A stretch of 64,000 bases of DNA from Liolophura sinensis (lineage: Eukaryota; Mollusca; Polyplacophora; Chitonida; Chitonidae), in NCBI RefSeq assembly GCF_032854445.1, contig NC_088295.1, forward strand, positions 39,295,385-39,359,384, in the 5' to 3' direction. This document shows, in pieces, positions 1-36,077 of the stretch. The notes beneath the pieces were generated by a model. The model was not told where the DNA came from. It did not search any database and saw only the letters and a list, made by a program, of their open reading frames with translations. Position 1 is the first letter of the stretch; every line of letters begins with the position of its first letter. A program made the position numbers and the translations under genes.

Positions 1-3000
1 CCAGTAGTCTCCTTCGGAGCCAGTGTGTGGACTAAAAACTGAGATGACTTCATTTCAAAACAGTAGAGAGAGAGAGAGAGAGCCTAACTGCAAAATTGGA
101 TTGAAGCAAATGACTATTCTGGTCAGTTATTAATTAAAAATTAAATTTATTTGAAGCCAACATCTAATTATTCATCCATCATGATTGACTTATTCATCTT
201 TCATGGTTGATAAAACCAGAAGATTGAAGATAACAAAACAGACCTGCAGCAAGCGTTGAAAGATGTTGACATTCTCTCAGCCAAGAACGAGAGGTCTTGT
301 TTTTTCTCCAGATGAATAATAACTAATGAAAACATTCCTTTCCATACAGCCCTCTTCCTTTTTGTGTCCAGCATTGAGAAATCCAACAGTTCATAAAAGG
401 CACAAAGCTTGTTTACCTGTAACACACACGCACAGCAATTGCAGATAACCAATGCCTGCATGTATCACATCAATACCACAATGACTTCACATCACTACAC
501 TGGAATTCCAGCATTTTATGTCATCACTCAGTATATGTTTTGTCATGTTTTGAGAGCGTAGATCTAACTTTGAAAGCATATGCACAACAGTGCTCACCTA
601 CCTAAAATCCCAGCCATGAAAACTAAGATACTAACTAGAGAGCTACCATTTGAGACAACAATTCAACTTCTTATTTTGACCAAAACACTTCATTCTGATG
701 ACACACACAAACGACAACCAGCTATTCTCTTGCAGTCAAGGCCTAAGCCTTTCTTCATGTCTCTAGTTGACACACCTACATCTGTGCTCTCAGTCTCTAG
801 GTCAGTCTTCACCACCAGTGTGTAAGGGTTAGGTAACTTACCTTTGTGTATAGGTCAGTCTTCACCACCAGTGTGTAAGGGTAAGGTAACTCACCATGGT
901 GTCTAGGTCAGCCTTCACCACCAGTGTGTAAGGGTAAGGTAACTCACCATAGTGTCTAGGTCAGCCTTCACCACAAGTGTATAAGGCTGATGTAACTCAC
1001 CATAGCGTCTAGGCCAGTCTTCACCACCAGGGTGTAAGGGTTAGGTAACTCACCATAGTGTGTGGGCCAGTCTTGAACACTAGTGTGCAAGGGTAAGGTA
1101 ACTCACCATAGAGTCTAGGTCAGCCTTCACCACCAGTGTGTAAGGGTAAGGTAACTCACCATAGTGTCTCGGTCAGTCTTCACCACCAGTGTGTAGGGTA
1201 AGGTAACTCACCATAGTGTCTAGGTCAGCCTTCACCACCAGTGTGTAAGGGTAAGGTAACTCACCATAGTGTCTAGGTCAGCCTTCACCACCAGTGTGTA
1301 AGGGTAAGGTAACTCACCATAGTGTCTCGGTCAGTCTTCACCACCAGTGTATAAGGGTAAGGTAACTCACCATAGTGTGTGGGTCAGTCTTGAACACTAG
1401 TGTGCAAGGGTATGGTAACTCACCATAGTGTCTAGGTCAGCCTTCACCACCAGTGTGTAAGGGTAAGGTAACTCACCATAGTGTCTAGGTCAGCCTTCTC
1501 CACAAGTGTGTAAGGCTGATGTAACTCACCATAGTGTCTAGGCCAGCCTTCACCACCAGTGTGTAAGGGTAAGGTAACTCAAAATAGTGTCTAGGTCAGT
1601 CTTCACCACCAGTGTATAAGGGTAAGGTAACTCACCATAGTGTCTAGGTCAGGCTTCACCACCAGCATCAAGGTGACGAATAGTTTGGTTAGGTTGTTCA
1701 GCCCCGTCTCTCCCAACTCCTGCATACGTCGGGTGTGGAATTTAGAAAATATCCTGTCATAATAAATTTTAAATGGCATCATGTTCTACATCCAAAAGAT
1801 CCAAATCTATTACTCAAAGAAAAACTCAGTGACCACTGATTCGTCTATGGCTAGACAAAGATAACCTTCCTGGTAAAAGGGTAATCTCACTCCAATAATG
1901 CTGGCTGTAGATGCAAAACATACAAATATAAACAGACAAATTGTTTTTTTTTAGATATGATATTCCAGAATAAGTTAACATTACAAAACTACTGTTGGGG
2001 GGCCTCGAGGCTCAGTTGGTTAGCATGCTAGCACAGTGTAATGACCCAGGTGCCTCTCACCAATGCGGTCTCTGTGAGTTCAAGTCCAGCTCATGCTGAC
2101 TTCACCACCGGTCATTCGTGGGAAGGTCTGTCTGCAACCTGCGGATGCTCGTGGGTTTTTCCGGGCTTCTGCCCAGTTTCCTCCCACCATAATGCTGGCT
2201 GCTGTCGTAGAAGTTAAATTTTCTTCAATACAGCGTAAAACATCAATCAAATAAATAAATAAACAAAACTACTGTTTACTAGAAAAGGAAAAATTAAGAA
2301 CTTTCCAGGGCGTACCCCTAAAAAGACCTTTTATCAAGGATCTTCACAGCCTTGAAAACCTTTCAATAAATTTCAAGGTGGGATCCCTGTAGGAGACTTG
2401 TGTTGCATACCTGCCCTTGAGCTGTCTCCACTCCTGTGAGGAGCCACGCTCCAGGAAGCGGTGTAGATGATCAGACAAGATGTGTAGGAACAAACTAAAG
2501 CTGTCCTCTTGCTCAAGACGTCGTAAAACAACATCCCTGAAAATGGTTACAACGTCATTTAGTACCATTCATTCCTGCTGATGAATTGAAGCATTGACAT
2601 GTGTCAAGCATTTGAAAAGTTTGGGACATTTCAAATAACATTTCAAATGCATGGATTTTTCAAAACCAAATAACAGATGTCACAAGTTAATGTGAAATTA
2701 ACTGCAGACCAATTAATAATAATATTCACTTCTATTTTACCTTTGTGTTAGACTTTTGCAATCAGTGAGGAAGGAGACGGCCGTTTTCCTGAAAGTCATA
2801 GAAAGGTTTGTCTCTTATGAATATCACAAATGAGATTCATATTCTCATTATTCTTGAGAATGGCATAAAACACAAATCAAGTAAATAAATAAACCATGTA
2901 TTTTCATTCTAGACAATTTTGACTTACATCAAGTAACCAGCGCATATTATGCACTTTAATAACACCTCAGAAAGTTAAAACTAATGAGAGTAATGCCTAA

Positions 3001-6000
3001 AGATCCCTCAAAATGAAAAAAAAAAATATTATTTTAGCTGGAAAACAATCATCACTCAAACCGTGACCCAATGTACAGACAACACCAACCTTATAGATGC
3101 AAGTCCATGTATCCCCATTGATGCCACTTGGACATACCGTCACCCAATGTGCAGACAACACAAACCTTATAGATGCAAGTCCATGTATCCCCAATGATGC
3201 CACTTGGACATACCGTCACCCAATGTGCAGATAACACAAACCTTATAGATGCAAGTCCATGTATCCCCATTGATGCCACTTGGACATACCGTCACCCAAT
3301 GTGCAGACAACACAAACCTTACAGATGCAAGTCCATGTATCCCCATTGATGCCACTTGGACATACCGTCACCCAATGTGCAGACAACACAAACCTTATAG
3401 ATGCAAGTCCATGTATCCCCATTGATGCCACTTGGACATACCGTCACCCAATGTGCAGACAACACAAACCTTATAGATGCAAGTCCATGTATCCCCATTG
3501 ATGCCACTTGGACATACCATCACCCAATGTGCAGATAACACAAACCTTATAGATGCAAATCCATGTATCCCCATTGATGCCACTTGGAAATATCGTCACC
3601 CAATGTGCAGACAACACAAACCTTACAGATGCAAGTCCATGTATCCCCATTGATGCCACTTGGACATACCGTCACCCAATGTGCAGACAACACAAACCTT
3701 ATAGATGCAAGTCCATGTATCCCCATTGATGCCACTTGGACATACCGTCACCCAATGTGCAGACAACACAAACCTTATAGATGCAAGTCCATGTATCCCC
3801 ATTGATGCCACTTGGACATACCATCACCCAATGTGCAGATAACACAAACCTTATAGATGCAAATCCATGTATCCCCATTGATGCCACTTGGAAATATCGT
3901 CACCCAATGTGCAGATAACACAAACCTTATAGATGCAAGTCCATGTATCCCCATTGATGCCACTTGGACATACCGTCACCCAATGTGCAGACAACACAAA
4001 CCTTACAGATGCAAGTCCATGTATCCCCATTGATGCCACTTGGACATACCGTCACCCAATGTGCAGATAACACAAACCTTATAGATGCAAGTCCATGTAT
4101 ACCCATTGAAGCCACTTGGAAGTTACTGTTCTGTAGAATGAAACCAGACAGGTAAAATTACCAAATGCTATTGTGGGATCTTTGTTGTTTGACTTGAAGC
4201 AGATTCATCATATTTGTTAGAAGACAAACACAAATAATGCATCGTATTTTATCTCAAGTGAAAAGTCAGCTTTATAATTTACAGCTATTGGTTATGAGAG
4301 CATTGTTGACCCAATACAAGTTCAGAGTGTCTAACAATACTTACCAGCTTTCCAGAAAAATAGTCCCACAATGTCATCACCATGGTAACATTGGGTTCCC
4401 ACAAGTGTGACAGTTTGACACAATATCTGAGATAGTGCTGCAGTTGTGACTCATCAACATTAGGCTGAAGAAGAGAGAAAGAAATCAAACAAACTCTAAA
4501 TTTCCCATGAACTGATAACTATATGTTTAACAGACTTCCTGAATTGCTGTTTGAAGCAAATATTGTTTAATCCACTCTGTGAATGCCATGATCTCATGAG
4601 CCCAAACTCATTCACTGCTTTCTTTGTGTTCATATGCAAACTACAGGTCAATGACCCTGGAACCTCTCACAAATGCATTTGCTGCGAGTTCAAGACCAGC
4701 TCATGCTGGCATTCTCTCCGGTCATATGTGGGAAAGGTCTTCCAGGAACCTGTGGATATCGTTGTGTTTTTCCAATGAGCTCTGCTTGGTTTCCTTTCAC
4801 CAGAATGTTAGCCTCCGTCGCATAAATAAAATATTCTTGAGTATGGCATAAAACTCCAATCAAATAAATAAATAAATAAATAAATATTAAAGATCACTAC
4901 ATTCATCCTTTGGGTGATGATCAATGGCAAAAAATAATCCAATGTTCTTGTCGCAGGCTACAAGGAAGTGACCAGTGACATGCATGAGTTCAAACCCAGC
5001 TTTAGATAGATTACACCTCATTATGTCCAGAAGCTTGTCAAGCAACTTCCAGACAGTTTCAGACATTTTCACAATAAAGAAACAGTCTTTAGGATGGTAA
5101 AACAAACCAGTCAAATAATTATATAAACATACATCAAATATTGATGAAATTCTCATTATCAGTGCACACTTCACTTACAGATGTGATGCAGGCCTTGATG
5201 AGAGTCTGTGCTAGCGGGTAATTGCTTTGAACAGCTGACTGAAATCAGAAAACAACCCTGAGCATTTCCTTATCCACAATATTAATACATCTTGGGAGCA
5301 TTATCTGTTCAAAACAGTTCAATAATTCACAATTGTATTTTTTATGAATGGTCAAATTGGTAATATTTATTGCCACATAAAAACAAGATGTGAAGATATA
5401 TTCAAGACAGCAGAAATTTTACACCGTAAATAGAAAATTTAAAATGTGTAAGTGTTTCAGAAAACCTATTGGAATCGAGTAGGTAGCACATACGATCGCA
5501 TTATATTGTCCTCTGTCATCGTAGGCAAAAAGTGGAGCAATCTGAGCCATCAGCCACAGGCAGAGAGGTGCAGGCTTGTCTACGCTGATTTCAGGCGGAT
5601 TGTAAAACACACTGGAATCTTCACAAAGAAATCACAATGCGCTTATGATCACATGAAAGTAATTACTCCCCACTTCCTGGTGGAGGCCCAAATCTCCTTT
5701 TCAAGGAAAATACTTGTTCTGATCCTTTATTCCTCTGAAAAGACTGAAAAATTCTTGGATACCATGTCATAAAACAATCAAGTAAATAAATATATAGTAT
5801 ATACATACATAATTGGTACATGTTTGTCACTTTGTTTGTCAATGTAAACAATTTAACCCTAATATATAGTAAATATCATCAATTTAGATAATTAGACTCA
5901 TTTCCTCATACCAAGATATAAAATAAATGGTAACCATTATGCTGACCTTATCAGAATAAAAAGTCCATATAAGTTGCAATTTACATATCAAATGCATCTC

Positions 6001-9000
6001 ATTTTGCCAAATCTATATTTGTTTAATATTTAAAAGTTTGTCTCTTCATCTTTTATATAGTATATTCATTAGTAGTACCTGTATCCATACTGTCAACTGA
6101 CCCATCATCTCTTGTACAAGTCAGCAAACCTTGAGCAGTACTGTGGAAATCAAACCAGAAATCCTGAAAACACAGGAGGTGAAACCACTTTACATATGGT
6201 CATTAACATCAATGTCAATTACAGCAGAAATTTAGGCTTACAAATTTAAATATATAAAACAGAGAGTGTGAAATTTTGTTGACATAAAGATGAGTTAAAG
6301 TTGGGAATTACTTTTTTTTCCCTGAGTGGACTTGTGAGTGGCACTTACAACATACCTCACGAGGAAAGCTTTCGAATTTCAAATTTGGAGTTTAGTAAAT
6401 GCAAATGAAGCAGATCAGAAACACATTACAGAGATGAGGCTATATCAGTCATATTTGTGAGTGTGACAACCTGTCCATGTCCTGATTTCTGTCTCCATGA
6501 CAACAGGTGAATGAGGATGACCAGAAACTCTCTCACACAGGAACAGGGGAAGGCAGACAGGCGGAGACGGTCACTGGGTGACAGCTGCAGACCAGAACAG
6601 ATTGCAATACAGAATGGAAACATTGACACCAAACTGCACAAGCATTTCCTGTGACATGAACATTTACATCAATTGTAAAGACGATATGGCTCAGTGAAGT
6701 TTTAATACCTGATTTTGTCAACTAAATCTTGACAGAACAAACATTGCCTATGAAATGTTGCCTATGGTATTATTATGGAGAGTTTTGTCTGAATAGAATT
6801 AAATGCATTATTCCTCAAATAATAATGTACCCAAATATGCATAACTCCTCAAATATTAATGTACCCAAATATGCACTGCTCCTCAAATATTAATGTACCC
6901 AAATATGCATTACTCCTCGAATATTAATGTACCCAAATACGCATTACTCCTCAAATATTAATGTACTCCAATATGCATCACACCCCAAATATTAATGTAC
7001 CCAAATATACATTACTCCTCAAACATTAATGTACCTGAATATGTAATAAGAAAATTCTAATGTGGAAAATGATGTTAGCACATAAAACATTGTGAAGTAT
7101 CTTAGAGGTATCTTTTTGAAAATATTCCCTTCTGATATAAATGTTTTTAAAAAATCAATGCTTTCTGTGATGAATTAGTGATTACTAGAAACTAATGTTT
7201 ATTACTAGCCCAGAAATGGAACACTGTAAATGGTTTTTTTTCTTTTCTGTTTCTGTTTGGTTTTAATGAAATCCTTGTTACAGATATACAATGAGTTCTC
7301 ACATCTCACCTTGTTATAGCGGTCAGCACAAATAGTGACCAAGTCCCATAGAATAAGCTGAGTGAGCTGTGAGGTCAAGCTCTCCGTTACACTGCTGTCA
7401 TTCTTGTTACAGCATATTGTTACCTGGGGAGAGTTTCCTACAAGAAAACAGCACAGATGACATCATTAGACTTCTAGATATATTTAATCATGGCATTTGC
7501 TAACATACATCAACATTCTCACTTGCCAAGTTCCTTATACAGAGAGGAGTTACCATGAAAAAGTGTATTATTGGATAATGACAGGCCTTCATGTACAAAC
7601 TATTTACCAATTTTGTGCATTTCTTTCAATGAAGTTATCTCCTGAAATTGAGTCAACATTTAGTGTCACAGAGTGCAGGTCATAAAACTAAGATAACCTG
7701 TCTAAGCTTCCACATTTTCTTAGCCTGTTACATTGGACTTTTTTTGTGAGTCAAAAAGGAAGATTTGACAGGAGCTGATTCAATCAATTATCCCCCAAAA
7801 GAGGCAATTTTTGGTGTGTTCATTCGTCTGTAAGTCCAAACAAACCTGCACAAATCTGATCCAGTTTCATCATGATTTGTAGAACACCCCAGTACATGTC
7901 CATATGCATGTGGAAATGATGAGAGGCCTTTGTCGGATTCTGCGTAACAAAACGAACTCATGACAAAACTTACAAATTTCAGATCTACAAATTGTCTTCA
8001 TAAAAATCTAGTGCCCTGTGAGCAACCCCATACTGGGGTTAAGTCTGGATGGGACCACTGTTATTTGCCACGTATCTGGCAGAAAACTGCAGCTCATCCT
8101 TTCAAACCATTATTCTATGATGCTGAACAAATTATTAGTGTTCTCTACTAAGTAACTGAGCCAGCACAAACTGCTATTATTACAAAACATAGTAAAACAA
8201 ATGTTTTGACTTATACTTTGCTATTGATTTTAGCTGGGTCATGTCATTCAATCAGACAGCAGTCAGTCTGTCTGTTGATTGGTCAAAATTTTTACATCCA
8301 ATTTTTTAAGGACCTGATGGCAAACTTGGAATGGCCTGAATGTGTCAACTACATATATTGTCAAAATGCACTTGTTTCATGTAACAATTAAAACAGTGAG
8401 CAAAAATGTGGGCCAGTGGGCATGAGCACTGACCTTCGACCCTCGTGATACACCTCCGGTAAAGGTTCTATGTTCAGAGAGCCTGCCCAGGTACTGCAGT
8501 AAAGCCTGCAGTTGAACACTGATCTCATGACAAAGGTATGGCTGCTGTTCAGAGCTCATATATCTGTAATAAACAAGACTATATGTAAAGACTGAAAAGT
8601 GTTCAACAGTTGATTACCACATCAAAATCATGATCTATGTCCAGTTTCCCACCCATGAAAACGGCCACTCAGCTTCAGTACAAAGCTTCATGTGGATGAT
8701 ATCAATGGGTAGTATTTTATACAGTGTATTTATCAATTTATTTCAAATATAATGAAATATGATATCTAACCTTCAAAAACATGTACTTTCAAGAATATTA
8801 TAAAAACTCTTATTCCAGGATTTCCCAAAGCTAAAAACCTTTCAACAAAATAGACAAATGGGAATGCTGAATTTGAATTCAAATTCATCAAAAATCAATA
8901 ATCAGAGAAGAATATAAAATGCACTGATGTAGCTGTTCACTCAAAAAATCATAACAGCAAACATACTCACAAAACACCATTTCTTTTTAAGAACTAACTT

Positions 9001-12000
9001 TAACAAAATTTTGTGTTATTATGTCTGCACCGAGATTCCAATAGCTTACTTTGTGATAAATAAGATTACATAATCAAGAAATTCCTTCAGCTCTCTTCTT
9101 GCCGTCAGGAAAACTTCACTCTCATCTGTGAAGTATACATAGTGCTTAGTAAATATATAATCTTAAGCATGGATCAAGTTCAACTAACAAACAATCAGCG
9201 TCAAAAAATAATTAAACATACAAAACATGTGCACATATTAAGCTGTTTTATTTTTCTTAATTTTTTCAAAGAGAACCTGCACACAAAATTTTACCAACAT
9301 TCAAAAAATTTAGGAGGATTTATTGCCTAGAAACCAAAGACAAGCTGACTGATGGACCAATAAATATGACCATTTATATCTCTCGCAAGACTGTAAATTC
9401 CAAAACACAATGTCCTACCCTTTGTCAAGGATGCTCCAGGAAATAGCTCAATCTTGCTGATCCAAAGTCTGCAGGATAAAAAGCCAAGAGAACAGCAAAA
9501 ATCAGTTCTGCCAAACTCGCTATATACAGATATACAAATAACTGATAACAATGCTGACAACATCATCTTGTACAGGATTTTTTTTATAAAGCACTGATCA
9601 GTAACTTACCTCCTGTAAATCTTCTTAACACGGTGAGGTATAATACACAACCTGGAGTGCATGCGCGTACATTAGTGTTAATCATGGAGGACCTAGATTG
9701 CCCATTCAGTGACATTACCCGTCTCTATATGATCACCAGCAACTTTTCAGCCTTCAGATATCAAATCTTAAGGCTGTAAATCACATCCCTTCAAAACTGC
9801 TGGTAGGAAAACTAGGAAATAAGGGACACTTTGGGTGTGACACTTACTTGGCAAACTGGAAAAGACTGTGGAGGTGCTCTGTGAGGGCCGTCTGCGGAGT
9901 GAAATAATTCCCAAACAGTACACAGGTGTTAGAGCCCAGCAGGATACCTGGGGTGGTCAGCTCCTCGTTACTCACCAGGCTGAAATAACCAGGTACACAG
10001 AGCTAAGGGTCTAAATCTGTTCTAAGGGTCTATATCTTAACAAAAGGTTCGTCTTGGTCAGGATTCCAATTGTTGAACAATTCCCTATTGACCTCAAACT
10101 GTATGTTTTCTAGAACATTGTTTGATTCATTTGATTGGAGTTACATACAATAATGAGGTATATACTCTGTCCCTTACAATGTTCTAAATTTGAATGTGGG
10201 GACGTGTGCAGTAACTTTAAACAGATGAATACCACTTCATGGCAATTGTACTTTTTTACTATTTATTTATTCGATTGGTGTTTTACGCCGTACTCAAGAA
10301 TATTTCACTTATATGACGGCGGCCAGCATTATGGTGGGAGGAAATCGAGCAGAGCCTGGCGAAAACCAATGACCATCCGCAGTACTTTTTTACTAAGATG
10401 CCATTATCCACATGAGCACAAGGTATTTTGGTATAGTCAGAGTCTAAGCCAGCCAACATTTCTGATCTGCAGCAAGGGTAAAGCAGAAGACTTTAATGCA
10501 GGTCTTTTTTTTTTTTTTTGGAAGGAAGGGAGGAGGGGGGGGAGGACAATGACCATGTCTAGGCTTTATTAATCTGAGACTCTGTGCTGAGATTCACTTA
10601 GCCCAAGACTGAACTGGCTTTCATTTAGCCCAAGATTGAGCTGGCTTTTACTTAGCCCAAGACTGAACTGGCTTTCATTTAGCCTGAAACTCAGGGCTGA
10701 GATTCACTTAGCCCAAGACTGAACTGGCTTTCATTTAGCCTGAAACTCAGAGCTGAGATTCACTTAGCCCAAGACTGAGCTGTCTTTCATTTACCCTGAG
10801 ACTCAGAGCTGAGATTCACTGAGCCCAAGATTGAACTGGCTTTCATTTAGCCTGAAACTCAGAGCTGAGATTCACTTAGCCCAAGACTGAGCTGTCTTTC
10901 ATTTACCCTGAGACTCAGAGCTGAGATTCACTTAGCCCAAGACTGAACTGGCTTTCATTTACCCTGAAACTCAGAGCTGAGATTCACTTAGCCCAAGACT
11001 GAACTGTCTTTCATTTACCCTGAGACTCAGAGCTGTGATTCACTTAGCCCAAGGCTGAGATGGTTCTCATTTACCCTGAGACTCAGAGCTGAGATTCACT
11101 TAGCCCAAGACTGAGCTGGCTTTCATTTATCCCAAGACTGAGCTGGCTTTTACTTAGCCCAAGACTGAGCTGGCTTTTACTTAGCCCAAGACTGAACTGG
11201 CTTTCATTTACCCTGAGACTCAGAGCTGAGATTCACTTAGCCCAAGACTGAGCTGGCTTTCATTTAGCCTGAGACTCAGAGCAGAGTTTCTCTAAGCCCA
11301 AGACTGAGCTGGCTTTCTCTCAGCCTGAGACTATACACTGGCTTTCTCTTGGCCTGAGATTCTGAGCTGGCTTTCACATAGCCCGAGACCGAGCTGGTTT
11401 TCACTTAACCCATGACTGAGGTGGCTTTCTCTAACCTGAGACTATGAGTTGGTTTCATCTTGGCCTGAGATTCTGGGTTGGCTTTCACATAACCCCAGAC
11501 TCTGAGCTGGCTTTCACTTAGCCTGAGACTGGGCTGGTTTTCACTTAACCCATGACTGAGGTGGTTTTCTCTTAACCTGAGACTATGAGTTGGTTTCCTC
11601 TTGGCCTGAGATTCTGGGTTGGCTTTCACATAACCCCAGACTCTGAGCTGGCTTTCACTTAGCCTGAGACTGGGCTGGTTTTCACTTAACCCATGACTGA
11701 GGTGGATTTCTCTTAACCTGAGACTATGAGTTGGTTTCCTCTTGGCCTGAGATTCTGGGTTGGCTTTCACATAACCCCAGACTCTGAGCTAGCTTTCACT
11801 TAGCCTGAGACTCTGAGCTGGCTATCACTTAACCTGAGACTCTGAGCTGACTTTCACACTGCCTAAGACTCTGAGCTGGCTTTCACTTAGCCAGAGACTT
11901 TGAGCTGGCTTTCTCTTGGCCTGAGACTCTAAGCTCACTTTCAGCCTTCATACCTGTGAATTGATCCCGACGGGAGCTGGCTTTCACTTAGCCAGAGACT

Positions 12001-12961
12001 CTGAGCTGGCTTTCACTAAGCCTAAGACTCTGAGCTGGCTTTCACTAAGCCTGAGACTCTTAGCTGGCTTTCACTAAGCCTGAGACTTTGAACTGGCTTT
12101 CTCTTGGCCTGAGACTATCTCACTTTCAGCCTTCATACCTGTGAATAAATCCAGACGGGAGCTGGCTTTCACTTAGCCAGAGACTCTGAGCTGGCTTTCA
12201 CTAAGCCTGAGACTCTGAGCTGGCTTTCACTTAGCCTGAGACTTTGAACTGGCTTTCTCTTGGACTGAGACTCTCACTTTCAGCCTTCATACCTGTGAAT
12301 TGATCCAGACAGGAGCGGTCCAGCTGGGTGAAAGTTCTCACACATACCAAGTCTGTCTTCTCCATTACACAAAAACACCACTGCACGATCAGAAACGGGA
12401 TCAGGATCTGAAAGTTATGGTTAAACCAACAGCATTTACAACTACAGTATAACCATTTACTTCATTTAAAAATCACATTACACAGAGGAAAAATCTTACC
12501 AAAAATGTTATATCTACAGAGCCATTGATAAAAATTAATCTGCAGAATGGACGAAGAGGCCCTCCAAATGAACACTTCGCTCCCATTTAAGAAATCCTAA
12601 CAGAATATAGGTTGTATTTCTTCAATATTTTTGCATTGGAGATAATTCATTGGGTGAAAAACATATTTGACAATGAGTCAGACTCACACTATAACTGGTA
12701 CAGAATTAGGGTCCAGAGTACCTCCATATTTAGGCTTTAACAACCGTTTCCACCATTATCCTGAAAAGCACTAGCCTTCCCCAGGAGTATTCCTAATGGT
12801 AGGCTTTCCATTATGTTTATTTCTCCAGTACACAGATAAGCACAGTAAATATTACCCTGTGGGTCATGTCCTGGGATAACACCTGGCAGCTCATCCTCCA
12901 CCAGGTTAAATCCCATGGGTGACAAGGGAGGAGTCATGGAACAACTATCTTGGATCTCCAT
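1..12961 (-). CDS. MMS22L: MMS22-like protein, 5' half (20 exons, 3' end beyond window)
   Basis: MMS22L partners TONSL; the complex binds nascent chromatin at stalled forks and promotes RAD51 loading in homologous recombination. Exons on the minus strand, phases consistent throughout: 12961-12856 (ATG), 12407-12293, 9979-9848, 9651-9610, 9468-9419, 9125-9050, 8563-8434, 7939-7846, 7437-7310, 6584-6471, 6163-6079, 5618-5494, 5238-5179, 4464-4345, 4130-4078, 2788-2741, 2536-2411, 1753-1636, 416-244 and 31-1. They give about 642 codons against about 1243 residues in human, so the C-terminal half is off the left edge. Landmarks aligning to remembered human MMS22L are CVREFLVILIHLL, LSHLWEPNVTMVMTLWDY, EWRQLKGRIFSKFHTRRM and RAVWKGMFSLVIIHLEKK, with near-identical spacing. 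It is probably an all-helical repeat protein; no catalytic motif is seen. The short exons 9651-9610 and 9468-9419 and the edge exon 31-1 are the least certain. Several donors are weak (GTCTGT, GTTGTC, GTTTGT). Confidence 0.9.
64..82. repeat. (AG)n microsatellite
   Basis: Short GA/AG dinucleotide run within an MMS22L intron. Confidence 0.9.
244..416 (-). CDS. MMS22L: MMS22L exon with WKG motif
   Basis: 173 bases after a TGTTACAG acceptor, starting VNKLCAFYELLDF and including RAVWKGMFSLVIIHLEKK and LSFLAERMSTSF. These match human MMS22L motifs around ALIWKG and VLAEKLSCAF. It is in phase with the preceding 1753-1636 exon. The donor CTGCAG/GTCTGT is non-consensus after position +2 but gives the right phase for a candidate exon starting at base 31. 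Confidence 0.85.
790..1665. repeat. Minisatellite 1: 53-bp unit, about 16 copies, exon donor included
   Basis: The period of 53 bp is read from successive copies of GTCAGTCTTCACCACCAGTG (801, 854 and so on). On the minus strand each unit reads as the end of an MMS22L exon (CTGGTGGTGAAG ... GACACTATG) followed by GTGAGTTACC, so most copies carry a good 5' splice site. The exon-proximal copy, 1636-1665, is coding. A variant with CTTGAACACTAGTGTGC occurs at 1068 and 1385, giving a higher-order period of 317 bp (six units, one base short). Confidence 0.95.
1636..1753 (-). CDS. MMS22L: MMS22L 118-base exon, ending in minisatellite 1
   Basis: The acceptor is ATGACAG and the donor ATG/GTGAGT. It encodes IFSKFHTRRMQELGETGLNN followed by LTKLFVTLMLVVKPDLDTM and joins the preceding exon through a split Arg codon. 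The final 30 bases, coding LVVKPDLDTM, and the donor form one unit of the 53-bp array that continues to about position 790. Confidence 0.85.
2000..2271 (+). mobile_element. tRNA-headed SINE, near full length
   Basis: The head is GCCTCGAGGCTCAGTTGGTT with an A-box-like segment, followed by a B-box-like GTGAGTTCAAGTCC. The body has GGGAAGGTCTG, AACCTGCGGATG and CACCATAATGCTGGC, and the tail is AAATAAATAAATAAAC. It lies in an MMS22L intron. The same family recurs at least ten times in the window, in both orientations. Confidence 0.9.
2845..2893 (+). mobile_element. SINE 3' tail fragment
   Basis: Only the 3' end of the common SINE remains: TTCTTGAGAATGGCATAAAA followed by an AAATAAATAAA tail. 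Confidence 0.65.
3055..4122. repeat. Minisatellite 2: 76-bp unit, about 14 copies, exon donor included
   Basis: The 76-bp period follows from the repeated CCTTATAGATGCAAGTCCAT. On the minus strand each unit carries GGACTTGCATCTATAAG/GTTTGTG, the end of the MMS22L exon at 4130-4078 with its donor. Variant units with GGAAATATCGTC near 3590 and 3894, and with CAAATCCATG before them, show a 304-bp (four-unit) higher-order duplication. Short open frames in the array come from the repeat and are not genes. Confidence 0.95.
4078..4130 (-). CDS. MMS22L: MMS22L 53-base exon, mostly inside minisatellite 2
   Basis: The acceptor is TTCTACAG and the donor is ATAAG/GTTTGTG. It encodes NSNFQVASMGIHGLASI plus two bases, matching the human segment that begins NSSF and has GLANTM at the same distance. 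About 43 of its 53 bases (4078-4120) belong to the 76-bp repeat, so the exon is a functional edge copy of the array. The next exon (2788-2741) continues RKTAVSFLTDC in phase. Confidence 0.8.
4645..4885 (+). mobile_element. tRNA-headed SINE, 5'-truncated
   Basis: Begins near the B-box region (TGCGAGTTCAAGACCAGCTC) and runs through the body to GAGTATGGCATAAAACTCCA and a (AAAT)n tail. It sits in the MMS22L intron between exons 5238-5179 and 4464-4345. Confidence 0.85.
5735..5795 (+). mobile_element. SINE tail fragment (weak)
   Basis: ATTCTTGGATACCATGTCAT is followed by AAAACAATCAAGTAAATAAA, a decayed copy of the SINE 3' end. Confidence 0.4.
6800..7045. repeat. 34-bp tandem repeat, about 7 copies
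   Basis: ATTAATGTACCCAAATATGC followed by a CTCCTCAAAT-containing remainder repeats every 34 bp with point differences. It is intronic in MMS22L and, unlike the three other arrays, does not reach an exon edge. Confidence 0.85.
10252..10385 (-). mobile_element. SINE, 3' part
   Basis: Reverse-oriented: TATTTATTTATT tail, then GTTTTACGCCGTACTCAAGA and GACGGCGGCCAGCATTATGG. The head is missing. Confidence 0.85.
10565..12314. repeat. Minisatellite 3: about 30-bp units with 56-bp compound forms
   Basis: About 1.75 kb of diverged repeats of the type GAGCTGGCTTTCACTTAGCC plus TGAGACTCT. The left part alternates AGCCCAAGACTGAACTGGC and CTCAGAGCTGAGATTCACTT as a compound unit. At the right edge the array includes the last bases and donor of MMS22L exon 2 (CACAG/GTATGAAGG), with extra copies at 11954 and 12139, 185 and 154 bp apart along the series. 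Confidence 0.9.
12293..12407 (-). CDS. MMS22L: MMS22L exon 2, ending in minisatellite 3
   Basis: 115 bases between a TTTCAG acceptor and a CACAG/GTATGA donor, encoding a segment with VVFLCNGEDRLGMCENF. The last roughly 20 bases and the donor are copied twice inside the adjoining intron array, with equivalent junctions at 11954 and 12139. Confidence 0.75.
12607..12745. repeat. Diverged direct duplication, shorter copy
   Basis: TGTATTTCTTCAATATTTTT, then GGAGATAATTCATTGGGTGA and ACTATAACTGGTACAGAA, matches 13380-13568. About 70 bases present in the other copy are missing here. It lies in MMS22L intron 1. Confidence 0.85.
12856..12961 (-). CDS. MMS22L: MMS22L first coding exon
   Basis: The ATG at 12961 opens 35 codons plus one base, ending CAG-G before a GTAATA donor. 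The next exon (12407-12293) starts AT after a TTTCAG acceptor and restores the codon as GAT, so the phase fits. The N terminus is poorly conserved with vertebrates. The ATG is chosen because it opens the only frame that joins the conserved downstream exons; upstream 5' UTR exons cannot be excluded. Confidence 0.75.
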
Positions 12962-16282: not shown

Positions 16283-19200
16283 TTACATCTGAATGTTGAT
16301 ATCTGGTAGCAGGTTACATGAGGATATAATATCAATTCTATCCTCCAGGTGGAATAAATCATTTGTCAGCAGGCGCATATTGTGGGAAATGTCCTGAAAC
16401 AGTTGTAAATAAAAGCACATTAAAAATTGGAGATTTAAATAGCCAACTGTACTTTGGTTCAATTGACTAAAATACTTCTTCCTTAAAAGTTTTCTTTTCG
16501 CTAGTTCTACCAATCATGTGCCTGTACAAAAGCTAAAACATTCTGAACACAAGAGAGATTCACTTGTTTGACAAACGACGTCTTATTTATTTCATTATTT
16601 ATTTGAGTTTTACGCTGCACTCAAGAATATTTCACTTACATGACTCCAGCCAATATTATGGTGTTTGGAAACTGAGCAGAGCTGAACCTGGGTGAAAACC
16701 ATGACATTCCAAAGGTTGCTGCTAGACCTTATCACGTACCGGCGGATAGGAAGCCAGCATGAGCTGGACTTGAACTCACAGTGAGAGGCTACTGGGTCAC
16801 TGTGCTGTGACATATAAACCACGCTATGTAAGCAAGAGTCATTTTGAGAATTTATATCAGCTCTGTCACTTTATCTTCTGACTACTCATGCCACGATAAG
16901 CACATCAGATGTATCAATATTCCCACCATCCTTCTCAACATCAGGATGGGAATAACGTGAATGCGACACCGTGGGATTTTCTCCATAAACAGCATTGATA
17001 GGGCATAAATACAGTAACAAAGAACGGTGTTACCTGCACAACAAGCTGTGTTTTCATCAACTGTTGTGTTGTATTGTGCAGATCTTTACTGGCAGACAAA
17101 TACATCTGAGCTGAAGATGCTACTAAATGTCGACGAAACATTGCATGACGTTCACCTGTAAAGGCAAAAACATTATTCAAACACTTTATCATTATAATGT
17201 ATGCTCCTAATCATTCCACTAATTCTTATACTTTATGAAACAAAATGATTTCAATTTGATACATTATGCATTCCAGAGAGTTACACCATAATTATGAACT
17301 GTATTTCAGCAAGGGGAATAATACTGATAAGGAGCTTACTCTACTGAAACCATAAAAATTACCAAGAATTTTGCTGTGATATATGATTGATTCTTGCACT
17401 ACTGTTACGCTGAATGTATCAGAAAACAATGGCTTATTGAAGTCAAGTACTTACGGAGCTTTTTATGCAGTAACCTATCGGAAAGAACAGAAAATACAAT
17501 AACTTTAAATTTGACAACTCATTATTTAGATTGAAATACACAAAATTGATCACATACTGTTTAAATAAAGCAAAGTGTTGTATAAGTTATCATCTTCAAC
17601 TGATCTGAATCTATACCCATTTGGATGACCACACCCTTGTAGTACTCATTTAATTGATGCTTAGCACTTTGCTCAAGAATATTTTACTTATATGGTAACT
17701 GTCATCTTTAAGGATAGAGAAAGGTAATTGTTGTATTAAGTGCATGGAACTACAGTGTATATATTTGGGTTTCTCAGCCTGTCAGCTCCATGGACTATGC
17801 TAGTGTATACCCACGTGTTATATTTAGGTTTCTCAGCCTGTCAGCTACATGGATTATGCTGGTGTATACCCACGTGTTATATTTAGGTTTCTCAGCCTGT
17901 CAGCTACATGGAATATGCTGGTGTATACCCACGTGTTGTATTTAGGTTTCTCAGCCTGTCAGCTCCATGGACTATGCTAGTGTATACCCACGTGTTGTAT
18001 TTAGGTTTCTCAGCCTGTCAGCTACATGGACTATGCTGGTGTATACCCACGTGTTATATTTAGGTTTCTCAGCCTGTCAGCTACATGGATTATGCTGGTG
18101 TATACCCACGTGTTATATTTAGGTTTCTCAGCCTGTCAGCTACATGGATTATGCTGGTGTACACCCATGTGTTATATTTAGGTTTCTCGGCTCCATGGAT
18201 TATGCTGGTGTATACCCACGTGTTATATTTAGGTTTCTCAGCCTGTCAGCTACATGGACTATGCTGGTGTATACCCACATGTTATATTTAGGTTTCTCAG
18301 CCTGTCAGCTACTTGGACTATGCTAGTGTATACCCACGTGTTATATTTAGGTTTCTCAGACTGTTAGCTACATGGATTATGCTGGTGTATACCCATATGT
18401 TATATTTAGGTTTCTCAGCCTGTTAGCTACATGGACTATGCTAGTGTATACCCACGTGTTGTATTTAGGTTTCTCAGCCTGTCAGCTACATGGATTATGC
18501 TGGTGTATACCCACGTGTTATATTTAGGTTTCTCAGCCTGTCAGCTACATGGATTATGCTGGTGTATACCCACGTGTTATATTTAGGTTTCTCAGCCTGT
18601 CAGCTACATGGATTATGCTGGTGTATACCCACGTGTTATATTTAGGTTTCTCAGCCTGTCAGCTACATGGATTATGCTGGTGTATACCCACGTGTTATAT
18701 TTAGGTTTCTCAGCCTGTCAGCTACATGGATTATGCTGGTGTATACCCATGTGTTATATTTAGGTTTCTCAGCCTGTTAGCTACATGGACTATGCTAGTG
18801 TATACCCAAGTGTTGTATTTAGGTTTCTCAGCCTGTCAGCTACATGGATTATGCTGGTGTATACCCACGTGTTATATTTAGGTTTCTCAGCCTGTCAGCT
18901 ACATGGATTATGCTGGTGTATACCCACGTGTTATATTTAGATTTCTCAGCCTGTCAGCTCCATGGACTATGCTGGTGTATACCCATGTGTTATATTTAGA
19001 TTTCTCAGCCTGTCAGCTCCATGGACTATGCTGGTGTATATCCATGTGTTATATTTAGGTTTCTCAGCCTGTCAGCTACATGGATTATGCTGGTGTATAC
19101 CCATGTGTTATATTTAGGTTTCTCAGCCTGTCAGCTCCATGGACTATGCTAGTGTATACCCACATGTTGTATTTAGGTTTCTCAGCTCCATGGACTATGC

Positions 19201-22171
19201 TGGTGTATACCCACATGTTATATTTAGGTTTCTCAGCCTGTCAGCTCCATGGACTATGCTAGTGTATACCCACTTGTTGTATTTAGGTTTCTCAGCCTGT
19301 CAGCTACATGGATTATGCTGGTGTACACCCACATGTTATATTTAGGTTTCTCGGCTCCATGGATTATGCTGGTGTATACCCATGTGTTATATTTAGGTTT
19401 CTCAGCCTGTCAGCTCCATGGACTATGCTAGTGTATACCCACGTGTTGTATTTAGGTTTCTCAGCCTGTCAGCTACATGGACTATGCTGGTGTATACCCA
19501 CATGTTATATTTAGGTTTCTCAGCCTGTCAGCTACATGGATTATGCTGGTGTACACCCACATGTTATATTTAGGTTTCTCGGCTCCATGGATTATGCTGG
19601 TGTATACCCATGTGTTATATTTAGGTTTCTCAGCCTGTCAGCTCCATGGACTATGCTAGTGTATACCCACGTGTTGTATTTAGGTTTCTCAGCCTGTCAG
19701 CTACATGGACTATGCTGGTGTATACCCACGTGTTATATTTAGGTTTCTCAGCCTGTTAGCTACATGGATTATGCTGGTGTATACCCATGTGTTATATTTA
19801 GGTTTCTCAGCCTGTTAGCTACATGGACTATGCTAGTGTATACCCACGTGTTGTATTTAGGTTTCTCAGCCTGTCAGCTACATGGATTATGCTGGTGTAT
19901 ACCCACGTGTTATATTTAGGTTTCTCAGCCTGTCAGCTACATGGATTATGCTGGTGTATACCCACGTGTTATATTTAGGTTTCTCAGCCTGTCAGCTACA
20001 TGGATTATGCTGGTGTATACCCATGTGTTATATTTAGGTTTCTCAGCCTGTCAGCTACATGGATTATGCTGGTGTATACCCACGTGTTATATTTAGGTTT
20101 CTCAGCCTGTCAGCTACATGGATTATGCTGGTGTATACCCATGTGTTATATTTAGGTTTCTCAGCCTGTTAGCTACATGGACTATGCTAGTGTATACCCA
20201 AGTGTTGTATTTAGGTTTCTCAGCCTGTCAGCTACATGGATTATGCTGGTGTATACCCACGTGTTATATTTAGATTTCTCAGCCTGTCAGCTACATGGAT
20301 TATGCTGGTGTATACCCACGTGTTATATTTAGATTTCTCAGCCTGTCAGCTACATGGACTATGCTGGTGTATACCCATGTGTTATATTTAGATTTCTCAG
20401 CCTGTCAGCTCCATGAACTATGCTGGTGTATATCCATGTGTTATATTTAGGTTTCTCAGCCTGTCAGCTACATGGATTATGCTGGTGTATACCCATGTGT
20501 TATATTTAGGTTTCTCAGCCTGTCAGCTCCATGGACTATGCTAGTGTATACCCACATGTTGTATTTAGGTTTCTCAGCTCCATGGACTATGCTGGTGTAT
20601 ACCCACATGTTATATTTAGGTTTCTCAGCCTGTCAGCTCCATGGACTATGCTAGTGTATACCCACTTGTTGTATTTAGGTTTCTCAGCCTGTCAGCTACA
20701 TGGATTATGCTGGTGTACACCCACATGTTATATTTAGGTTTCTCGGCTCCATGGATTATGCTGGTGTATACCCATGTGTTATATTTAGGTTTCTCAGCCT
20801 GTCAGCTCCATGGACTATGCTAGTGTATACCCACGTGTTGTATTTAGGTTTCTCAGCCTGTCAGCTACATGGACTATGCTGGTGTATACCCACGTGTTAT
20901 ATTTAGGTTTCTCAGCCTGTCAGCTACATGGATTATGCTGGTGTACACCCACATGTTATATTTAGGTTTCTCGGCTCCATGGATTATGCTGGTGTATACC
21001 CATGTGTTATATTTAGGTTTCTCAGCCTGTCAGCTCCATGGACTATGCTAGTGTATACCCACGTGTTGTATTTAGGTTTCTCAGCCTGTCAGCTACATGG
21101 ACTATGCTGGTGTATACCCACGTGTTATATTTAGGTTTCTCAGCCTGTTAGCTACATGGATTATGCTGGTGTATACCCACGTGTTATATTTAGGTTTCTC
21201 AGCCTGTCAGCTACATGGATTATGCTGGTGTATACCCATGTGTTATATTTAGGTTTCTCAGCCTGTCAGCTCCATGGACTATGCTAGTGTATACCCACGT
21301 GTTATATTTAGATTTCTCAGCCTGTCAGCTCCATGGACTATGCTAGTGTATACCCACGTGTTATATTTAGGTTTCTCAGCCTGTTAGGTACATGGACTAT
21401 GCTGGTGTATACCCACATGTTATATTTAGGTTTCTCAGCCTGTCAGCTCCATGGACTATGCTAGTGTATACCCACATGTTGTATTTAGGTTTCTCAGCCT
21501 GTCAGCTACATGGATCACGCTGGTGTATACCCACGTGTTATATTTAGGTTTCTCAGCCTGTCAGCTACATGGATCATGCTGGTGTATACCCACGTGTTAT
21601 ATTTAGGTTTCTCAGCTTGTCAGCTACATGGACTATGCTAGTGTATACCCACGTGTTATATTTAGGTTTCTCAGCCTGTCAGCTACATGGATTATGCTGG
21701 TGTATACCCACGTGTTATATTTAGGTTTCTCAGCCTGTCAGCTACATGGATTATGCTGGTGTATACCCACGTGTTATATTTAGGTTTCTCAGCCTGTCAG
21801 CTACATGGATTATGCTGGTGTATACCCACATGTTATATTTAGGTTTCTCAGCCTGTCAGCTACATGGATCATGCTGGTGTATACCCACGTGTTATATTTA
21901 GGTTTCTCAGCTTGTCTGTCTAACAGGGGAGAATGTGATTCTTCTCTCAAAAGCACTCTGCTACCGTCACCTTCCCCATCTTTGTTCACTGAAACAATTG
22001 TAAACCAATCTAACTGTAGATATCAATAGATACTGCTATAGAAACCTGAGATTAAAATAGAAACTTAACACTGCTATTATAAAGTTAATAATCTTTTTTT
22101 TTCCCAAAATAATTGTATGCTAATACAACTGATTTTACCAACAGGTATTTACATGCCATGAAATATATAAT

Positions 22172-23154: not shown

Positions 23155-24627
23155 ATGACAAAGGGACGCCGAAGCCCGGCATCAGAAAGTCCAGTAAGAC
23201 ACAGGTCAAAACACAAGGACAGGTCAAGGTCCAGGAGTCCGAGAGATCGTAAACAGGTAATTACATATTGCAAAAATCACAAATTATGTAAAGCACTCAA
23301 GGACGAACAACAACAACAAACATTTCAGTTTCACTATTTCAATGCTATTTGTTTAAAATGTAACTAAATGTTTTGTCGAAGTCGGTTTCTCCTAGCCCCA
23401 TTATTTTTGTTAGTTTGTACAAAGCGACATTAATAAGAAACTCTACGGTTTCTAAATGTGAAGGCTGTGTCGCTTTAATTTAATACCACAAAAATTCAGA
23501 TTTCTGTTCATGACCCTGTCAGTGTCAGCCAAGTAGTGATGTCCAAGTACTCTAGCTTTTCATATTATACCATGGCAATTGTCTGGGCTGATCAAGAAAT
23601 CAGGATGTATTTAAATGATGTATGTGACACTGAATGTGTAATGTTAACACATGTGAATCGGGCTTTAATCGTAGCAACAGCCTTTCAGGTTTACATTTCT
23701 TTGCCAAGTACATCATATATTTTCATCTTGGTCACTTTTATAGTCTTTTGTGGAATGCTATCATGGCTTTCCATTATCAGTTGTGCCTGATCTTGTGCCT
23801 GTATTTTCCTTTCTTTAAAAAAATAAGTTCATTGTGATTATTGTTTTTCCAGAGTCACCGAAGGGATGGTGGTGATCACAGGGATAGCAGACGAGAACAC
23901 AAACATGACAGAAATCATGAACGCAGGCATAGGAGTAGATTTGAAGCAGAAGGTAATGAGCGTCCCATTAAACAGGAAAGAGATGTAGAGAGGAGTCAAA
24001 GACATGAAAGAGAAAGAAATGATGACAGACGGCGAGAGGCTAGACGAGAAAGAGACAGGAACCCCCCAAATGAGCCTTCAGCAGAAGAAGAGCCTGTGCC
24101 AAAAGAGGGACCCAACTTTGAGGTCTCCGGAAAGTTAACTGAAGAGACCAATACATACAGAGGTGTAGTCATTAAATACAGTGAGCCCACAAGAAGCACG
24201 TAAGCCCAGGAAAAAGTGGCGCTTGTATCCATTCAAAGGGGAAGAAGCCCTGCCTGTCATGCACATTCACCGCCAGAGTGCTTATTTGATCGGGCGAGAC
24301 AGAATTGTTGCTGATATAGCAGTTGATCATCCATCGTGTTCAAAGCAGCATGCAGTGCTGCAGTACCGTCTGGTGAGTTATAAGCGTGAAGATGGCAGTG
24401 TAGGGAGGAGAGTGCGTCCATATGTCATCGATCTCAATTCTGCCAATGGCACATTTGTTAACAATAAGAAAATTGAGCCACAGAGGTATGTTGAACTCCT
24501 GGAGAAAGATGTTGTGAAGTTCGCATTCAGTTCGAGAGAGTATGTGCTTTTACATGACAACTGTCAAACAGATGAACCTCAAGATGATGAGGGAAACTGT
24601 CTCAGATTGACCACCGCATCTGTGTAG
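23155..24627 (+). CDS. SNIP1: Smad nuclear-interacting protein 1 (FHA domain), with one-base frame break
   Basis: SNIP1 is a nuclear FHA protein linked to TGF-beta/NF-kB repression, miRNA processing and the spliceosome. Exons: 23155-23256 (ATG, 34 codons) and 23853-24627, joined in phase at an AAACAG/GTAATT donor and a TTTTCCAG acceptor. An Arg/Ser/Asp-rich N terminus (RSRSRSPRDRKQ; REARRERDRN) is followed by the conserved NTYRGVVIKYSEP and the FHA domain: GRDRIVADI, DHPSCSKQHAVLQYRL, YVIDLNSANGTFVNN, RYVELLEKDVVKFAFSSREY. The phosphothreonine-site residues (GR, S..H, NG) are intact. An extra base within 24186-24190 shifts the frame between KYSEP and QEARKPRKKWRLYPF, so the sequence as written stops at 24203. 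All else is clean, which suggests an assembly error or a very recent lesion. The corrected length is about 291 residues, against nearly 400 in human. Confidence 0.93.
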
Positions 24628-35426: not shown

Positions 35427-36077
35427 TCATTGGTTGACGGAAAACTGGGTCAGGCTCACGTGGCCGAAGCGGTATTTTACAAACAGAAGTGTAAAGAAAA
35501 GGAATGCAGACGTTTCAGTGAAAATTAAAAGTGAATTTATTGAAAACTGCGCCACCGAACAGACTAGTGTAATCTTTATAGGATGAGGACGAAAGAGAAG
35601 TGGAGTTTGCTGACTATCCTCCGGATTCTGTGCGGAAGTTGATGGCATCGGAATCGTGAAAACTTCGTTTGTGCGCACTTGAACTGACCAGCCAAGGAGT
35701 GGAAGCGCGGGAGATGGTTGACTGAAGGCGCGATTGCCCCGAAGTGAACTCGACATTTGCTTCTGCTCTGTGTGGTCTAATTTAGAATCATACTCCTGGA
35801 TGCCAGCAAGGGATTTGTGTCCGGTGACCTGCATAATTTTATGTGGGGCGACGCCAGATTTTACAAGGGTTTGGACGGTTGTTTTTCGGACAGAGTGATT
35901 AGTTTTCCGGCCTTTCAGTCCAGCAACCTCGGCAGCCCTCTTCATTAGCTCTCCCAAACGATGCTCTCCCGTTGGAGTGGAGTAATACCACACAGCTGCA
36001 TCAGGTTTGAGGCGACATTCGGGAATTGGTGTTAGGTAGATGTCCAGCTCTGGGCCATCAAATGGATCAAGTAGCAT
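35427..36077 (-). pseudogene. Crypton-type tyrosine recombinase, C-terminal catalytic fragment
   Basis: A 216-codon open frame whose first half resembles the DUF3504/Crypton tyrosine recombinase domain also found in KIAA1958, QRICH1 and ZMYM proteins. Visible core: LGELMKRAAEVAGLKGRKTN (residues 41-60), NHSVRKT with H61 and R64, TGHKS with H87, and IQEYD with candidate nucleophile Y96. The domain's first catalytic Arg and N-terminal half are absent, and an in-frame TGA lies directly before the ATG. Residues after about 120 look unrelated. It is probably a truncated transposon copy. A spliced gene with further exons upstream is possible, but none was found. Confidence 0.7.

Follow-up and report, generated by a model that had tools for sequence, protein, structure and literature searches.

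Minisatellite arrays spanning splice junctions in MMS22L and other genes of the chiton Liolophura sinensis

Minisatellite-like tandem duplications that include an exon/intron boundary are known from amphioxus, where they were named "mirages" and affect both 5′ and 3′ splice sites in several genes (PMC3087553). The genes given in the two reports concerned are Adh3, the globins BflGb6 and BflGb9, TnC and PGBD5 (PMC3087553, PMC3902484), with lancelet PGBD5 and troponin C presented as further cases (PMC3902484). In the description of the class, units measure 10 to 160 bp, RT-PCR suggests regular splicing, and the arrays are unstable in length (PMC3087553). A minisatellite in human IFI6 (6-16) has downstream units that serve as donors, yielding several mRNAs (PMC4526556). 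Under the Rogers model, and for human internal tandem repeats at exon/intron boundaries, duplication of a proto-splice site makes a new intron out of coding sequence (PMC2812944, PMC3087553).

Among molluscs, an abalone TSSK1-like gene carries a long and length-polymorphic intronic minisatellite with a 27-bp unit; like the arrays described below it lies in a mollusc intron, and the account of it does not state whether an exon end is included (PMC6905558). The literature consulted, mostly titles and abstracts with few subscription papers, yielded no mollusc case of an array across an exon/intron boundary, which is weak evidence of absence. The genome paper, as far as its main text goes, makes no mention of minisatellites or tandem repeats (PMC11068029).

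The locus examined here is a window of 64,000 nucleotides, the whole stretch of Liolophura sinensis DNA that was analysed; negative coordinates denote positions to its left. It contains the 5′ part of the chiton MMS22L, a DNA repair gene on the minus strand that extends from 12961 to about -19714. A spliced aligner was run on the window and the adjoining 20 kb on its left, with human MMS22L and splice-site profiles derived from the Liolophura genome as guides. The resulting whole-gene model has 35 exons, 34 introns and 1207 amino acids, and its protein matches the Pfam families MMS22L_N (352.5 bits) and MMS22L_C (247.6 bits), which bears out the gene name given in the original prediction. A PDB search with one MMS22L exon as query returned no MMS22L relative.

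That prediction also held that the exons ending at 1636, 4078 and 12293 each finish inside a tandem array that copies their donor. The spliced model places the exon ends at the same three positions, with donors ATG/GTGAGT, AAG/GTTTGT and CAG/GTATGA, respectively (a slash marks the junction). The four array-bearing donors of the gene (exons 2, 14, 17 and 25) are firm, and some small exons and the end of the first exon are uncertain. The array-bearing acceptor of exon 33 is less firm than the donors, as it lies at -18018 in the model and at -18057 in an earlier run; the exonic overlap of its array is 45 nt in the first case and a few bases in the second. The features of the gene are as follows.

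1..12961, minus strand: portion of MMS22L within the window, with the ATG at 12961 and the model end at about -19714, near C1:39275670 (spliced model and Pfam).
792..1665, minus strand: 53-bp minisatellite, 16.5 copies, 89%, over the exon 17 donor, with 14 GT decoys (TRF; exonic overlap 30 nt).
1636..1753, minus strand: MMS22L exon 17, ending ...CTATG/GTGAGTTACC within the array (spliced model; PF14910 match 1627-1782).
3060..4120, minus strand: 76-bp minisatellite, 14.0 copies, 96%, over the exon 14 donor, with 13 GT decoys (TRF; exonic overlap 43 nt).
4078..4130, minus strand: MMS22L exon 14 (53 nt), ending ...ATAAG/GTTTGTGT within the array (spliced model).
6803..7043, no strand: 34-bp array entirely within intron 8, away from junctions, for comparison (TRF).
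10574..12316, minus strand: 29-bp minisatellite and longer units that copy the exon 2 donor twice (TRF and donor copies).
12293..12408, minus strand: MMS22L exon 2, donor CACAG/GTATGAAG; exon end 12293 firm, acceptor at 12380 (model) or 12408 (reading of the sequence).
-3892, minus strand, left of the window: fourth donor array, 118-bp units, exon 25.
-18018, minus strand, left of the window: acceptor array, 87-bp units, exon 33.

Arrays span five of the 68 splice junctions of MMS22L, namely four of the 34 donors (exon 2 at 12293, exon 14 at 4078, exon 17 at 1636 and exon 25 at -3892) and one acceptor (exon 33 at -18018). After merging, the gene has nine arrays, which cover 34% of its intron bases and reach up to 2.4 kb, and five of the nine span a junction. 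TRF rows alone account for three of the donors and the acceptor. We also used a self-similarity scan (24-base windows with at most 5 mismatches), whose edges may overrun by a few bases and by which the downstream junction copy begins inside the exon by 36 nt at 1636, 49-50 nt at 4078 and 28 nt at 12293. The arrays and exon ends of the three exons in the window lie where the prediction placed them; the arrays are locally derived and copy approximately the last 30-50 coding bases together with the GT donor. The arrays at the exon 25 donor and the exon 33 acceptor lie outside the window and thereby test the pattern in a way that had not been planned.

At exon 2 the donor had been assigned to a unit of about 30 bp, and this part needs revision. 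The donor is indeed copied, 154 and 339 nt downstream, in a longer unit that gives two decoys, but the plain 29-bp unit is without the donor and the merged TRF array starts 18 nt past it. Longer TRF rows of 56, 58, 141, 156 and 185 bp are present in this array, in which the longer units follow one another at distances of 154 and 185 nt.

All MMS22L arrays that span a junction have one terminal copy in the exon and their remaining copies in the intron. In a comparison directed at escape of boundary copies from homogenization, a trait of mirages, the terminal exon copy differs from the consensus at three positions in exon 14 (internal mean 1.3), two in exon 17 (3.4), four in exon 25 (4.8) and one in exon 33 (4.2). 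As predicted, the arrays are unrelated in sequence: none of the ten pairs among the five units outscores the best of 60 shuffles, with exon 2 versus exon 17 tying the best shuffle. Genome searches with probes from the 53-bp and 76-bp arrays gave no match elsewhere, very common words being skipped, so that uniqueness is unproven; a dispersed repeat or transposon was rejected as the source of the units on the ground that these two probes match this locus alone. The spanning events exceed chance: five cross-locus control runs of 212 donors and 213 acceptors, with the threshold unchanged, each produced no false spanning event, and looser thresholds produced 0 or 1 per run.

Wrong exon ends or an assembly error within the repeats could in principle create such a picture, as the exon ends come from a gene model and HiFi coverage is 14x (PMC11068029). 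We regard an artefact of this kind as barely credible. Both Pfam domains exceed 240 bits in a protein built from exactly these exons, the arrays, at most 2.4 kb long, fit within a HiFi read of mean length (8.3 kb; PMC11068029), and the same pattern recurs in unrelated genes.

In their main traits the MMS22L arrays resemble the mirages as described in amphioxus. Their units include the exon/intron boundary (four donors and one acceptor), and their copies carry splice signals: GT is present in 48 of 49 donor copies, and at the exon 33 acceptor 20 of 21 copies have AG. In the chiton genome boundaries of either type are affected, and in several genes (see below). The connection with splice-site tandem duplication that had been proposed for this locus is supported, for a class already described and named in amphioxus (PMC3087553). 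Unlike the amphioxus examples described, the chiton arrays occur in a mollusc, reach about 20 copies and 2.4 kb, and number five in one gene; also, amphioxus has RT-PCR and length-instability data, whereas the chiton arrays are known here from the sequence of one assembly. New relative to amphioxus are the mollusc host, the five arrays in one gene and the sampled rate.

We consider it likely that the MMS22L arrays are mirage minisatellites produced by random tandem duplication and repeat turnover. Short tandem duplications would originate throughout the introns of this chiton, and some would by chance straddle an exon end and then expand into long arrays through repeat turnover. The exon-side copy would retain the coding exon in full along with an intact splice site, and splicing there would give a normal mRNA, while use of a decoy would lead to a premature stop or a frame shift and be selected against or degraded. 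Growth of an array would presumably be tolerated because the exon-side copy preserves the full exon and its splice site. The process is like intron gain by tandem duplication, as modelled in the accounts cited above, in that extra splice sites have been created; unlike in intron gain, the MMS22L copies sit within introns, and we claim no new intron.

One alternative is that MMS22L is specially tolerant of arrays, for example through low expression or weak constraint. A comparison set was assembled from the DNA around exon matches of kinesin, myosin and FANCD2, families fixed before arrays were inspected, and SNF2-family loci (best matches) were added later. The 195 exon matches used comprise 90 of 132 for kinesin and 62 of 81 for myosin (no internal stop), 17 of 17 for FANCD2 and 26 of 58 for SNF2. 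The SNF2 matches are 20 of the 24 with locus sequence (four with several stops were dropped) and six others in those loci; at least one further SNF2 match, at locus L143, and the FAT family (2 matches) were left out. Removal of duplicates and of junctions with a splice score below 3 bits left 178 donors and 179 acceptors.

Under a uniform self-similarity rule, arrays span seven of the 178 donors (∼4%) and four of the 179 acceptors (∼2%) in this sample. The seven donors include one borderline locus (L039); two others (L034 and L125) appear real by eye and stayed uncounted under the uniform threshold, which misses diverged intronic arrays alike. TRF applied to the first set (kinesin, myosin and FANCD2) found five of 155 donors and two of 154 acceptors spanned, on a list that was altered after the sequences had been read. 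Array sequences were also checked by eye for kinesin, myosin and FANCD2 slices and for one SNF2-family locus (L149). Arrays make up 9-15% of sample intron bases at 200-500 nt from exons, compared with 4.5% at the donor junction itself and 1.9% at the acceptor junction, all by TRF before correction of three junctions.

A myosin locus (L065, 648-850) has a two-copy, 104-bp duplication of an exon end and its donor, which perhaps represents an early stage or first step of such an array. At the SNF2-family locus L149, an 88-bp unit in 2.6 copies copies the acceptor and the first coding bases of the exon.

The tolerance peculiar to MMS22L that had been offered as one explanation is rejected by the spanned donors and acceptors in these kinesin, myosin, FANCD2 and SNF2-family genes. 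The gene does stand at the high end, though not alone: an array share of 34% of intron bases compares with 18.6% in the FANCD2 stretch (exons included), and a one-sided binomial test for at least four spanned donors among 34 at the sample rate gives P=0.04. However, its rates are not significantly different from those of the other genes, either for donors (4/34 versus 7/178, Fisher P=0.08) or for all junctions (5/68 versus 11/357, Fisher P=0.15), and special tolerance is in our view very unlikely. Since a few percent of the sampled exon ends of other genes carry junction arrays, which are also known from lancelets, the MMS22L arrays are striking and not peculiar to this gene.

A second alternative is that duplications start more often at donors, owing to a feature at the 5′ end of introns such as bound U1 snRNP, R-loops or replication pausing. 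We compared the counts with a null in which duplications start anywhere and the chance that a unit of length p covers a junction scales with p minus 16, which allows for 8 nt per side; intronic arrays within 280 nt served as the reference. In MMS22L, four donors were observed against 1.33 expected (P=0.024, ranging from 0.024 to 0.084 over thresholds), in a gene chosen post hoc for its donors, and one acceptor against 1.36. Pooling the sample with MMS22L, and thus including a gene picked for the feature, gives 11 donors against 5.75 expected (P=0.019) and five acceptors against 5.73.

The unselected sample, by contrast, has seven spanned donors against 4.42 expected under uniform seeding (P=0.14, or 0.07 to 0.16 over the thresholds tried) and four spanned acceptors against 4.37 (P=0.66), with similar results at 4 to 7 mismatches. 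Donors and acceptors in the pool do not differ significantly from one another (11/212 versus 5/213, P=0.14). When whole arrays are placed freely in MMS22L, about 10 donors and about 10 acceptors are hit, far above the observed numbers; when whole arrays may swallow no exon, the mean is 0.89 donors and P(4 or more) is 0.008, three having been observed by TRF and four with exon 2. We give these whole-array nulls less weight because arrays do not arise whole.

Counted across the genome, the exact motif CAGGTAAGT forms 249 tandem triples with spacings from 12 to 42, and the reversed motif forms 161. There are 9807 and 4854 single sites, respectively, so that triples per site amount to 2.5% and 3.3%, and the perfect donor motif shows no per-site excess in tandem triples genome-wide. 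Among the matches listed, a small number of long arrays predominates.

The suggestion of a mechanism seeding repeats at exon/donor junctions thus finds no confirmation in the independent sample or in motif counts per site, and the acceptors spanned in MMS22L and in the sample show that the phenomenon is not restricted to donors. In our reading no donor seeding mechanism is needed, and a mild donor bias is possible; seeding at donors as the explanation of the arrays is unlikely, if worth weighing. We are slightly more doubtful still of the boldest extension of that idea, in which tandem duplications in chiton introns would start preferentially from 5′ splice sites throughout the genome, thousands of introns would begin with arrays of strong decoy donors among which the spliceosome must choose the first of tens of equal donors, and new exons and introns would keep arising from the arrays.

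Also, in C1:8145-3806145, 58 of the 100 CAGGTAAGT sites that fall among the matches listed (9807 in total) lie in five tandem clusters, so in this interval over half of the perfect donor motifs listed are in arrays.

Tens of decoy donors had been expected in the introns, and the count agrees. The four donor arrays contain 49 junction copies at a limit of 7 mismatches in 24, and the 48 with GT are distributed as two at exon 2, 13 at exon 14, 14 at exon 17 and 19 at exon 25; 29 of them are inside the window. Judged from reading frames, use of a decoy is predicted to introduce a stop codon in the extension in 46 of 48 cases and a frame shift in the other two, and in no case to leave an extension that is in-frame and open. 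The exon-side copy is therefore predicted to be required for the normal protein. The MMS22L minisatellites are like that of IFI6, as reported, in repeating a donor at an exon end; unlike in IFI6, where several donors are used, the frames in MMS22L speak against multiple donor use.

Decoys might instead be retained for a function, for example to hold U1 on long introns or to feed a regulated unproductive splice form. Such a role would fit the strength of the copies, 47 of 48 GT decoys equalling or exceeding the authentic donor in score, although similarity-based copy detection favors intact ones. It would also fit the donor 9-mers, which are relatively well conserved within the unit in the three MMS22L donor arrays tested (conservation ranks of 0.33, 0.11 and 0.15). 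Over eight donor arrays, however, the mean rank is 0.36 (P=0.09), which is not significant and led us to reject selection on decoy donors, and over five acceptor arrays it is 0.48 (P=0.44). Moreover, homogenization of repeats yields the same picture. Decoy splice sites are neither purged nor clearly retained by selection, and a retained function is quite unlikely. Against random duplication with tolerance stand the donor excess in MMS22L and in the pool and, for a pure form, the fact that the decoy donors, by the same eight-array rank, have not decayed, which pure tolerance does not require.

In the literature found, mirages are described gene by gene in lancelets, and here they affect a few percent of sampled exon ends in a mollusc. 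The chiton genome thereby offers a natural experiment both in how the spliceosome chooses among many equal-strength donors in cis and in junction arrays as a possible route to new introns. The arrays are of interest because they are dense enough in the genome for existing data to allow tests of donor choice and intron gain.

Other features were observed in the window. The longest array is a 59-bp minisatellite at 17755-21916, with 71.5 copies over 4.2 kb (TRF). Two MMS22L introns contain, at about 1996-2265 and 4640-4880, diverged copies of what we take to be a mollusc tRNA-derived SINE. On the plus strand, an open frame at 24169-24627 encodes an FHA domain (Pfam, 65.1 bits) and is preceded by an arginine-rich frame at 23838-24203; together they look to us like SNIP1. 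A 216-amino-acid open frame on the minus strand at 35427-36077 has a weak match to phage integrase (tyrosine recombinase) at 27.8 bits, against a cut-off of 27.1, and perhaps derives from a Crypton- or DIRS-like element.
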